DNA of 64,000 nucleotides from NCBI GenBank assembly GCA_028818225.1, contig JAPPOG010000069.1, positions 1 to 64,000 on the forward strand, read 5' to 3'. Of the stretch, positions 42,721-60,571 are shown in pieces. Source of the stretch: Gammaproteobacteria bacterium (GTDB taxonomy: Bacteria; Pseudomonadota; Gammaproteobacteria; Pseudomonadales; Pseudohongiellaceae). Below the pieces are notes generated by a model. It saw only the letters and a program-made list of their open reading frames with translations, made no database searches and was not told the DNA's origin. Position 1 is the stretch's first letter. Every line of letters starts with the position of its first letter. Both the position numbers and the translations under genes were made by a program.

Positions 42721-43008
42721 TCACTCGAGAACTTTCGGCACCAGATATAAACCGTCTTGCGCTTCCGGCGCCAGGGTTTGCAATTCATCGCGGTTATCGG
42801 TTTCGGTAACAGTGTCAGCTCGCAGACGTTGCACTACATCAAGAGGATGGGCCATTGGTTCAACCGATTCCGTATCAACGGACTGCATCTGGTCGATTAG
42901 CGCCAATATGTCTGTGATGCGATTGGCGACTTCCTCGGCATCGGCTTCGCTAATATGCAGCCGAGCGAGTTGCGCAATCTTTTCTACTTCAGACTTGTCT
43001 AAAGCCAT
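42721..43008 (-). CDS. gatC: aspartyl/glutamyl-tRNA amidotransferase subunit C
   Basis: 95 residues, all-helical small subunit that ties GatA to GatB: MALDKSEVEKIAQLARLHI is the conserved start and PMAHPLDVVQRLRADTVTE the conserved extended region. First gene of gatCAB, divergent from mreB. A promoter with a perfect -10 hexamer lies upstream (43185-43215). Confidence 0.95.
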   Translation of the reverse strand: MALDKSEVEKIAQLARLHISEADAEEVANRITDILALIDQMQSVDTESVEPMAHPLDVVQRLRADTVTETDNRDELQTLAPEAQDGLYLVPKVLE

Positions 43009-44419
<1,411 letters not shown>

Positions 44420-44553
44420 GCCACCTGGTAAGCCAAATTCACCCTTAATCCCCGATTTTGCAGCAAAAAACCAGAATTCTGCGGGAATTGAAGGATTTAC
44501 GGGCTTTGGGGCGGAGGAATATAATTCCGGTTTCCCAAAGGAGGTAATCCGGC

Positions 44554-45492
44554 ATCGACAAGACCTTATTTATAAAAGGCGTTGCCCTGGAATACCGGGC
44601 TCTGGCTTTTCTTCTTTTATCTGTGTGCATCATGTTTGCAGACAGCCGTTTCGGCTATCTGGATAAAGTGCGTTATGGGCTTGGCTATGCCACCACACCG
44701 ATCTACTGGGTCGCCGATATTCCTACCCGGGTTTCTTTCTGGGTTGATGATGTCTTCGTGTCCCGCACCGACCTGTTAGAAGAAAATGAAGTATTGAGAG
44801 AAGAGTTACTGGTTGCCCAGCGAGAGCTCCAGCTGCTGGAAAGCCTGGCCAGTGAAAACAGTCGCCTGCTTGCCCTGAACGAGGCCACCGGTGGAATCGA
44901 GGGCGATGTATTACCCGCAGAAATAATAAATGTGTCGCCGGATCCCTTTTCCAAACGGGTACTAATCAATAAAGGTGCCAACGATGGCGTGTTTATCGGT
45001 CAGCCATTATTGGATGCCAATGGATTAATGGGTCAGATTGATGAAGTGCTTCCTTATACCAGCTGGGCTTTGTTAATTACCGATTCCCATCACGTGACAC
45101 CGGTGGAAGTAAATCGTAACGGTGAGCGCGCCCTTGCCAGAGGAAGCCGCACTACTACCAACGAACTTGAACTGGAATTTGTCACCCAGACCCAGGATAT
45201 GCAGGCCGGCGATCGCCTGGTGAGTTCCGGCATGGGCCAGGTGTATCCAAAGAATTATCCCGTAGCAGAAATTATTTCTGTCTATTCTGATCCGGGACTG
45301 GACTTCGCTACCGTTCGCGCCCGACCGTTGGCACAAATGGCAAGTACCCGTCACGTCATGCTCGTCTTTCAAACCGAAGAAACTCAGCTGGAACCGGTTC
45401 CTGAAGCTGAACAGTTGGTAAGTGATGAGCTGACTCCCACTGAAATCGAAGGTCAGGTTTCACAAATCCAGAATGAACCAATAGAACAGTAG
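44554..45492 (+). CDS. mreC: rod shape-determining protein MreC, apparent ATC start
   Basis: 312 residues if started at ATC 44554. A strong site AAAGGAGG (44537-44544) lies nine bases upstream, and the product begins (M)DKTLFIKGVALEYRAL, the usual MreC cytoplasmic start, followed by its membrane helix (about 16-28). An in-frame stop at 44545 excludes earlier starts. The first standard start, GTG 44623, has no ribosome site and would delete most of the helix. Periplasmic coiled coil at about 70-108 (ELLVAQRELQLLES), then the beta-domain with GANDGVFIGQPLLD. A TATAAT at 44520-44525 could be the -10 of an internal promoter. MreC links MreB to the wall synthases. Confidence 0.93.
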   Translation: MDKTLFIKGVALEYRALAFLLLSVCIMFADSRFGYLDKVRYGLGYATTPIYWVADIPTRVSFWVDDVFVSRTDLLEENEVLREELLVAQRELQLLESLASENSRLLALNEATGGIEGDVLPAEIINVSPDPFSKRVLINKGANDGVFIGQPLLDANGLMGQIDEVLPYTSWALLITDSHHVTPVEVNRNGERALARGSRTTTNELELEFVTQTQDMQAGDRLVSSGMGQVYPKNYPVAEIISVYSDPGLDFATVRARPLAQMASTRHVMLVFQTEETQLEPVPEAEQLVSDELTPTEIEGQVSQIQNEPIEQ

Positions 45493-45494
45493 TC

Positions 45495-45989
45495 GTGGCA
45501 ATACAACAAAAAGCGCATGCCACCTGGGTAATCATACTTAGTTTCTTCATAGCGTATCTGCTAGCTATCGTGCCGTTTCCTGATTGGGCCATGAATTACC
45601 GCCCGGAGTGGGTGCCCATGGTACTTATCTACTGGGTGATGGCCCTCCCATATCGGATTGGTATCGGTGCGGCATGGTTTGCCGGGTTGATACTGGACAT
45701 TCTCGAAGGCTCCATACTCGGGTTAAATGCCATGGCCCTGGTTATCATTGCCTACGTCACATTAAGTTTGCATCTACGCTTGCGCATGTTTTCTTCCCTG
45801 CAGCAGGCAGGTCTGGTGCTGGCTTTGGTTGGTCTGAACCTGACGCTCAGTCACTGGCTACAAATCATTACCGGGCAAACTGTTGCCTCTAACTTGATGT
45901 TTCTCATGGCTGCGCTCACCAGTGCCGTTATCTGGCCTTCTTTGTTTCAATTACTGCGTCAAATTCGTCGTAGTTTCGACGTTCACTAG
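45495..45989 (+). CDS. mreD: rod shape-determining protein MreD
   Basis: 164 residues from GTG 45495, two bases after mreC. Almost entirely membrane-embedded, with about five helices. Family features: the N-terminal helix ending IVPFPDWAMNYRPEWVPMVLIYW, the GLILDILEGSILGLNA segment and a short basic tail. Works with MreB and MreC in the elongasome. Confidence 0.95.
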   Translation: MAIQQKAHATWVIILSFFIAYLLAIVPFPDWAMNYRPEWVPMVLIYWVMALPYRIGIGAAWFAGLILDILEGSILGLNAMALVIIAYVTLSLHLRLRMFSSLQQAGLVLALVGLNLTLSHWLQIITGQTVASNLMFLMAALTSAVIWPSLFQLLRQIRRSFDVH

Positions 45990-45998
45990 TAATCTTCA

Positions 45999-46607
45999 AT
46001 GAGTAGTTCCAAATTAATTCTGGCTTCGGCTTCACCGCGCAGGGAACAATTGCTGCGGCAATTGGGTGTGGACTTTGTAATTGCGGCGCAAAACATCGTC
46101 GAGCGAATCGGTCTCAATGAGTCACCGGAAAAATTTGCCCAGCGTATGGCAGATGAAAAAGCCAGATCAGCATTGGGTAGTCGCACGGAGAACGATATCG
46201 TGGTGTTGGCTGCGGATACAATCGTCGTGTGTGGCGATCAGGTGTTGGGCAAGCCCAAGGACAAGAGTGAAGGGTTGAAGATGCTGTTATCGCTTTCCGA
46301 TAAGAGCCATCGTGTATTGTCAGCGGTTATGGTGGCGACACCCATCCGGCAGCAGTCAGTGCTGTCCGCCACCACCGTTAAGTTTCGGGAAATCAGCGAA
46401 ATCGAGGCGGAAGTTTACTGGGATTCCGGTGAACCGGAAGGCAAGGCTGGAGCTTACGCGATCCAGGGCTTTGGTGCCGTGTTTGTGCAATCAATTAACG
46501 GCAGTTACAGTGGTGTGATGGGACTCCCACTGTTTGAAACCGCGCAACTATTGAATGAATTCGGCATTCAATGTTGGCAGCCGGATCAGGGAAAATCCAA
46601 TGAATGA
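45999..46607 (+). CDS. maf: Maf-family nucleotide pyrophosphatase
   Basis: 202 residues. Maf proteins hydrolyse dTTP/UTP or modified pyrimidine nucleotides to monophosphates. N-terminal motif LASASPRREQLLRQLG, catalytic Asp region VLAADTIVVCGDQVLGKP, and GAYAIQGFGAVFV. The mreD-maf-rng order favours the YhdE (dTTP/UTP) type. Its last 8 bases overlap the rng start. Confidence 0.93.
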   Translation: MSSSKLILASASPRREQLLRQLGVDFVIAAQNIVERIGLNESPEKFAQRMADEKARSALGSRTENDIVVLAADTIVVCGDQVLGKPKDKSEGLKMLLSLSDKSHRVLSAVMVATPIRQQSVLSATTVKFREISEIEAEVYWDSGEPEGKAGAYAIQGFGAVFVQSINGSYSGVMGLPLFETAQLLNEFGIQCWQPDQGKSNE

Positions 46608-59767: not shown

Positions 59768-59830
59768 CTTGCGAACTACAAGAACCTTCCTTTATGATTC
59801 TGCGTTGCCAGTTTCTTCAGGAGTACCACC

Positions 59831-60571
59831 ATCAACAAGAGTCTTGTAAGCAACCTCTTTGCCGCTGTCCTGATTCTCATTGGCCTGACCATTACCGGTA
59901 CTTACCAGGTTTATATCCTGAACACAGGCCTGTTCGCCCTCTCCGGCGGAATTACCAATTGGTTAGCGGTGCACATGCTGTTCGAGCGGGTGCCGGGCCT
60001 CTATGGTTCCGGTGTGATTCCCCTGCGCTTCGAAGAATTCAAGGTGGGTATCCGCAAGCTGATCATGGATCAGTTTTTTAACAGTGCCGATCTCGAAGCG
60101 TTTTTTCATGGTGCCGGAGATACCAGCGAAAGAATTGGTGCTTCCCTAAAGCAAGCCATTGATGATCTCGATCTTGACACAGCTTTCGAGTCTTTGCTCG
60201 ATGTCATCATGACTTCATCATTCAGTGGCATGTTAAATATGGTTGGTGGTCGTGATGCGCTTAATCCATTGAAATCTCCGTTTGTGGCAAAGATGCGTGA
60301 TTACTTCGAGAATCAATTTGCCAATTCCGGTTTCCAGGACCAGATCCATGACGCTCTGAAAAATGCTTTGGACGATGAAGCCATTCGCCAAAAAGTGGCG
60401 GAATTGATCGATCAGCGACTGGACCAGATGACACCGCAAATGGTGAAGGAGATTATTCAGGAAATGATTCGCAAACACCTGGGTTGGCTAGTGGTATGGG
60501 GATGTGCTTTCGGTGGCTTAATCGGCCTGATGGTAACCATTATCTCGAATATACAGAGTTGGAGTTTGTGA
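59831..60571 (+). CDS. DUF445-family membrane protein, apparent ATC start
   Basis: 246 residues if started at ATC 59831. AGGAG (59819-59823) lies seven bases upstream, and the product starts (M)NKSLVSNLFAAVLILIGL, a normal N-terminal membrane helix. The conserved segment ALSGGITNWLAVHMLFERVPGLYGSGVIPLRFEEFK follows. An in-frame stop lies at 59795, and the first standard start (GTG 59969) falls inside that conserved segment, so translation must begin upstream. The middle is helical and probably coiled coil, and a second membrane helix lies near the C-terminus (LVVWGCAFGGLIGLMVTII). The role of DUF445 in envelope biology is not established. Confidence 0.88.
   Translation: MNKSLVSNLFAAVLILIGLTITGTYQVYILNTGLFALSGGITNWLAVHMLFERVPGLYGSGVIPLRFEEFKVGIRKLIMDQFFNSADLEAFFHGAGDTSERIGASLKQAIDDLDLDTAFESLLDVIMTSSFSGMLNMVGGRDALNPLKSPFVAKMRDYFENQFANSGFQDQIHDALKNALDDEAIRQKVAELIDQRLDQMTPQMVKEIIQEMIRKHLGWLVVWGCAFGGLIGLMVTIISNIQSWSL

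Follow-up and report, generated by a model that had tools for sequence, protein, structure and literature searches.

The mreC gene in the window (by which we mean the whole stretch of 64,000 nucleotides that was analysed) raises the question of how translation starts in a frame that has no standard initiation codon available to it. We use standard for ATG, GTG and TTG, and ATH (or AUH) for the isoleucine codons ATC, ATT and ATA. Gene finders usually allow only the three standard codons. The sequence-only reading had proposed that mreC starts with AUC, and pointed to a Shine-Dalgarno (SD) sequence, AAAGGAGG, at 44537-44544, followed by nine bases and then ATC at 44554-44556 in the mreC frame, with an in-frame stop at 44545 and no standard codon before GTG 44623. 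All of this is found on reading back the sequence, the stop being TAA and the SD being close to perfect.

The gene qualifies as mreC, as its product is above the curated cut-off for both PF04085 and TIGR00219 (169.2 bits for the latter, with a cut-off of 92.75), and it is flanked by matches to PF06723 (mreB) and PF04093 (mreD). The solved MreC chain 7eft aligns with the window MreC from query residue 3. After TAA 44545 the frame reads S-G-I-D-K-T-L-F, the I being ATC 44554, and the stop excludes an upstream start in the window. If GTG 44623 were the start, the best 19-residue hydropathy near the N-terminus would drop from 1.96 to 0.64 and most of the membrane helix would be lost, as had been claimed. 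An Rfam scan of 43000-46600 gave no match up to E 1, so there is no known RNA family in that interval. The features are given in Table 1.

Table 1. Features of the mreBCD locus and of a second gene with a proposed AUC start, in window coordinates
Feature	Position	Strand	Evidence or remark
mreB	43376..44419	+	ATG start, first in mreBCD; PF06723 E 4.9e-146
SD of mreC, AAAGGAGG	44537..44544	+	duplex -12.9 kcal/mol
In-frame stop TAA, a short way 5' of mreC start	44545..44547	+	sequence reading
Proposed mreC initiation codon ATC	44554..44556	+	ATH in relatives; onset of coding constraint
mreC, 312 aa	44554..45492	+	PF04085 E 1.1e-37, 129.6 bits (cut-off 28)
mreD, GTG start	45495..45989	+	PF04093 E 4.2e-22
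SD of second AUC-start gene, AGGAG	59819..59823	+	duplex -6.9 kcal/mol
DUF445 gene, proposed start ATC 59831	59831..60571	+	PF04286 E 1.3e-16

The mreC start within the genus

A base-call or assembly error, with ATG read as ATC, was taken in the sequence-only reading to be the main alternative, and the genome is indeed a draft in 89 contigs. However, aligning the mreC 5' ends of close relatives, as that reading had suggested, leaves it no real place. The genus search covered 84 genomes and found mreC in 78, with a readable N-terminus in 77 including the window (76 of the 83 other genomes, six being without a match and one without the N-terminus), and the homologous codon is ATH in all 77. By rule 75 were scored as ATH (69 ATC, 4 ATA and 2 ATT), and L077 and L079, in which the reference Phe is changed, were read by eye as ATC. 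With ATC, ATA or ATT in 76 other genomes of the genus, the single-contig G025, G103 and G104 included, we take a base-call error to be excluded for practical purposes and rejected it.

The third base of the start codon in the genus is mostly C (69 of 75), while 46% of internal isoleucine codons are ATC: the counts of ATC, ATT and ATA are 69, 2 and 4 at the start and 282, 218 and 108 within mreC. In the set L254-L313 the corresponding counts are 28, 25 and 7 at the start and 219, 81 and 13 internally. The third base at the start does not follow isoleucine codon use within mreC; in both cases the sequences are related and no test was applied. From the excess of ATC at the genus start over its internal share, AUC may be preferred there to AUU and AUA.

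Evidence that the ATH codon initiates comes from the 73 distinct genus sequences. Codon 1 encodes isoleucine in all of them, and pN/pS is 0.20 for codons 2-8, 0.26 for codons 9-26 and 0.26 for codons 27-70. On the 5' side, from position -21 onwards, diversity per site is mostly 0.5-0.7, with 0.27 at -11 in the SD, 0.39 at -3 and 0.37 at -1, so the bases 5' of the start vary freely except in the SD and, to a lesser degree, at -3 and -1. The coding constraint thus begins at the AUH codon. The codon is also accompanied by a strong and well-spaced SD. Depending on the group, 90-99% of the ATH loci have an SD duplex at least as strong as -5 kcal/mol, as against 20% of 1791 internal mreC isoleucine codons and 56% of 188 mreB starts. 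In mreB the homologous codon, taken at a fixed offset, is ATG in 186 of 197 loci.

It could be argued that the true start lies elsewhere in the frame, either at a downstream GTG or ATG or at an upstream standard codon. The interval from the upstream stop to the conserved Phe is without ATG, GTG or TTG in 61 of the 77 genus loci (L077 and L079 were not scored), and an upstream standard codon remains possible in the other 16, and likewise in 15 of the 80 named genomes discussed below (best 80 of 588); in one P. aeruginosa record mreC is annotated from a GTG 16 codons past the ATC that stands before Lys-Pro-Leu-Phe. However, codons 2-8 and 9-26 are constrained like the remainder of the gene, a downstream start would delete most of the helix, and there is no room for an upstream start where the stop and the site are only one to three codons apart, as in the window, L010, L156, L188 and P. 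aeruginosa L137. Both forms of the proposal were rejected on these grounds as very improbable. The sequence-only reading would have accepted as refutation a relative whose frame has a conserved standard start at a different position, and none was met in the genus and family loci that were read.

Translational coupling, or reinitiation after mreB or a short upstream frame, would be another way of reaching the AUH codon, and mreC does lie 3' of mreB, with a short ATG or GTG frame ending near the ATH codon in 90 of 270 loci. But the other 180 loci have no such frame, in the 259 loci measured the mreB stop always lies between 16 and 388 nt upstream, without any overlap, and the strong SDs suggest independent entry of ribosomes. 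Coupling to mreB was rejected as unlikely. Nothing was found in favour of a special initiator tRNA reading AUH, and this was also rejected, with hardly any weight left to it, because the genome gave a single full-length match to initiator tRNA (93% identical), and its anticodon is the ordinary CAU. The proposal that AUC 44554 is the true start of mreC is in our view strongly supported by the ATH codons of relatives, the onset of constraint and the SD.

Distribution beyond the genus

For the other genera of the family 53 genomes were searched. There was a match in 51, and 43 of these were fetched and 8 left out. All 43 have ATH at the site, 40 of them by rule, and L106, L113 and L114 have ATT at the site and a GTG two codons earlier, within the SD zone; 39 of the 43 are free of standard codons from the upstream stop to the conserved Phe. 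The other families of the order gave 21 genomes, with 20 matched and 15 fetched (5 left out), and here 11 of 15 are ATH, with three ATG (L125, L126 and L129) and one TTG (L131). L134 has ATH at the site and also TTG two codons earlier, and 8 of the 15 lack a standard codon over the same interval. Loci of the order are also present in the phylum draw, in which L321, L322, L323, L328, L329 and L342 have ATH, L327 has ATT with TTG two codons earlier, and L330 and L339, from one family, have ATG; L324 and L326 of that draw duplicate L134 and L131.

In the case of the named genomes we have the best 80 of 588 confirmed stretches, some of them identical to genomes of other sets. All 80 have ATH at the site (77 by a stricter rule), with TTG or GTG two or three codons before it as well in L261, L267 and L273, and 65 of these best 80 are free of standard codons from the upstream stop to the conserved Phe. 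Named genomes with ATH include Pseudomonas fluorescens, P. putida, P. entomophila and P. delhiensis, and also Stutzerimonas, Marinobacter, Cellvibrio, Gilvimarinus, Haliea and Kineobactrum.

The class draw comprised 276 genomes, 250 of them with a match, and the 88 loci read (L139-L226) were the best-scoring and mostly one per family, a choice that biases the sample to MreC proteins like the query. By rule 60 of the 88 are ATH, 18 standard and 8 other, and 2 are without the reference Phe. The phylum draw had 120 genomes, of which 100 matched. Its 28 best loci, which all belong to the class and in a few cases repeat earlier genomes, gave 6 ATH, 16 standard (13 ATG and 3 TTG), 2 other and 4 without the Phe. 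Among further named species, E. coli, Aeromonas caviae and Proteus mirabilis have ATG at the site and two Acinetobacter have GTG. These have the same gene and N-terminal region but a standard start, and the annotated E. coli and Acinetobacter records have the order mreB-mreC-mreD. AUH is thus not required for MreC function, given the ATG of E. coli, Aeromonas, Proteus and many phylum-draw loci.

The mreC of Legionella adelaidensis (L228) lacks both ATH and ATG at the homologous site, and is annotated from a codon further upstream, with the result that the gene overlaps the end of mreB.

Over all sets, with repeats removed, there are 292 starts, made up of 255 ATH (157 ATC, 72 ATT and 26 ATA), 31 ATG, 3 TTG and 3 GTG; this count leaves out loci with neither ATH nor a standard codon at the site or with fewer than 110 residues read. 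The AUH start is kept across species in the genus, family and order and in the best 80 of 588 named stretches. As judged from these sequences it is near-universal in the Pseudomonadales sampled and common in the class, but not universal. The AUC start noted in the window thus appears to be a trait of much of the class, and not of one gene in one genome. Our conclusion is that the site acts as a start, with AUH kept across much of the Gammaproteobacteria sampled and a strong SD; there are no expression or N-terminal data.

There are consequences for annotation, as P. aeruginosa, P. fluorescens and P. putida are among the species with an AUH mreC, and in such genomes the annotated MreC may be missing part of the cytoplasmic tail and helix. 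In P. aeruginosa CP123788.1 (L137, 207-269) the frame runs stop TAG, GAG, CGG, ATC, ATC and then Lys-Pro-Leu-Phe, and mreC is annotated from GTG 267, 16 codons beyond the second ATC. On our reading of its sequence, the start is placed too late in this, the one Pseudomonas record that we examined. In a structural study of the P. aeruginosa protein the cytoplasmic residues and membrane region are counted within the first 14 residues (PMC8137920). Fourteen residues is short for a membrane span, which fits a truncated reading of P. aeruginosa MreC, but this is inference. The CP123788.1 record has 1131 bases and is labelled as a plasmid, and contains only mreB-mreC sequence.

Possible reasons for the AUH start

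The reading that we prefer, and to which we give a probability of about three in four, is that mreC is initiated at AUC 44554 and that the AUH codon is a brake keeping MreC low, offset by the strong SD; the effect on yield is inferred. The fMet-tRNA would pair with the first two bases of AUC, the mismatch at the third base being tolerated, while the SD would hold the initiation complex at the codon. The product would begin fMet-Asp-Lys-Thr-Leu-Phe and so retain the cytoplasmic tail and membrane helix. The brake would hold synthesis of MreC low against that of MreB from the same operon, and the SD would raise initiation to the level needed. Where AUG is used, as in E. coli and Proteus, a weak SD may perhaps give a low rate instead.

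We infer that AUH is a brake because the initiator is the ordinary CAU one and because of what is reported for such codons elsewhere. In S. aureus grown in poor medium, AUU and AUA starts with extended SDs yielded about 10% as much as AUG (PMC13009471). IF3 discriminates in vitro against weaker third-base pairs and excludes them; with AUU read by CAU, increasing IF3 to 1.5 uM brought the full-length share down to 31% (PMC10158994; for IF3 kinetics see PMC8266586).

SD strength was compared with the start codon over the order, class, phylum-draw and named plasmid-collection loci. With repeats kept, the 81 ATH loci have a median of -7.2 kcal/mol and the 31 ATG loci one of -3.4 (Mann-Whitney p 5e-9), with -5.9 for GTG/TTG (n=7); with repeats removed the medians are -7.1 (n=79), -3.5 (n=30; ATH against ATG p 2e-8) and -4.7 (n=6) respectively, and the conclusion is hardly affected. 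Taken relative to mreB of the same genome, the value is -3.5 where the start is ATH (n=34) and -0.1 where it is standard (n=18; p 2e-5). Kinship is uncorrected in these comparisons, and a tree-based test had no more than 3 independent pairs with support (15 if all branches are counted), for which the sign test is not significant. The mreC SD is weak in E. coli (-3.0 kcal/mol), Aeromonas (-1.7) and Proteus (-2.2), and is -5.9 and -6.7 in the two Acinetobacter; ATG loci with a strong SD also exist (L125, L157, L169 and L330). If there are two routes to one low rate, a strong SD would be expected to go with AUH and a weak one with AUG, and this is the pattern obtained, though the independent events are few.

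A FastTree tree of 319 mreC rows, with repeats kept, requires at the fewest 69 codon changes, and at the fewest 16 changes between ATH and standard. For 214 of the rows (L002-L136 and L234-L313, nearly all of the order) there are at least 33 codon changes and 4 between ATH and standard, with 3 ATG and 1 TTG among the starts. ATA to ATG is a single transition. The simplest reading of the tree is purifying selection against AUG at the mreC start. Low MreC dosage seems to us the likeliest purpose of the AUH start, with only indirect support, from the association of SD and codon.

A different purpose, possible but in our judgement rather unlikely, is that through its AUH start mreC, along with infC and some other genes, is controlled by IF3 or initiation conditions, MreC going up when IF3 is scarce relative to ribosomes and cell-wall elongation thereby being coupled to growth. 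It would suit this that 255 of the 292 non-repeated starts are AUH and only 6 GTG or TTG, that IF3 discriminates in vitro as described above, that infC with ATT has been reported (PMC5559785), and that the AUA start of S. aureus ccpN, at about 10% of AUG in poor medium, gives up to 30% in rich medium (PMC13009471). However the response of mreC is inferred only, and infC and pcnB of the window genome are not clear AUH starts: infC (L314) has ATT immediately before ATG, and pcnB (L315) has ATT GTA TTA ATG, with ATT three codons before ATG. As ATT and ATG are both near the start, we do not use these two genes as support. Whether dosage or IF3 sensing is the reason for AUH is directly testable in easy laboratory strains.

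Other genes with AUH starts

The AUH start of infC is conserved over wide bacterial groups. Binns and Masters in 2002 reportedly found the AUU start of E. coli pcnB to be inefficient and to limit expression, and in having an inefficient AUH-type start this gene would resemble mreC, though in the window genome pcnB has ATG as well as ATT nearby. For infC, ATT is reported in Xanthomonas and, with autoregulation, in E. coli (PMC5559785), and AUA in S. aureus (PMC13009471). The starts of infC and mreC are alike in being AUH and widely conserved. However the product of infC is the very factor by which the infC start is discriminated against, whereas mreC encodes a scaffold for cell-wall elongation, and for this reason no autoregulatory loop is expected for mreC. 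Staphylococcus ccpN (AUA) and cvfC1 (AUU) are like mreC in combining a conserved AUH codon with a strong extended SD, the cvfC1 start being conserved among Staphylococci and that of ccpN as far as B. subtilis (PMC13009471). They are however Firmicutes genes, whereas AUH in mreC spans many Gammaproteobacterial families.

We found no report of an AUH start for mreC in the literature searched, and no paper combining mreC, start codon, Pseudomonas and non-AUG, but subscription papers and supplements were outside the scope and rarer mentions may have been missed. A Salmonella study has one AUU among 26 new N-terminal forms, and its main text does not contain the word mreC (PMC11005335). It seems from the sequence comparisons that mreC is a further AUH-initiated gene, unusual for its breadth and its role in cell shape. 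AUH starts have mostly been regarded as a curiosity of infC and pcnB, and mreC adds a gene for cell shape in which such a codon, together with a strong SD, persists across many families. It is conceivable, but we hold it doubtful, that AUH marks a small unannotated set of Gammaproteobacterial genes (mreC, DUF445 in the genus and probably others) whose output follows IF3 or the state of initiation and ties cell-wall elongation to translation capacity. If so, the set would be hidden by gene finders restricted to ATG, GTG and TTG.

In the DUF445 gene no standard codon occurs in the open frame before codon 58. Of 58 genomes searched 27 have the gene, that of the window among them, and all belong to the genus. 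ATH stands at the site in 23 of the 26 relatives; the exceptions are L372, L394 and L395, in which ATG or GTG is nearby. The case is less clean than that of mreC, as several of the 23 (L377, L378, L384 and L390-L393 for example) have a standard codon a few codons upstream.

A screen of the contig (151.6 kb) for such genes used the ends of BLAST matches for 33 conserved ORFs, and was discarded because the ends overran into non-coding sequence and gave many false flags. The screen that we retained covered 120 ORFs with conservation in one relative or more (87 of them in at least two), and compared synonymous with non-synonymous changes in the stretch before the first standard codon. A loose filter flagged 9 of the 120, and in seven of these the synonymous changes are about equal to or fewer than the non-synonymous. 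The two with a clear coding signal are mreC, with 91.5 synonymous and 31.5 non-synonymous changes, and the DUF445 gene, with 89 and 32.
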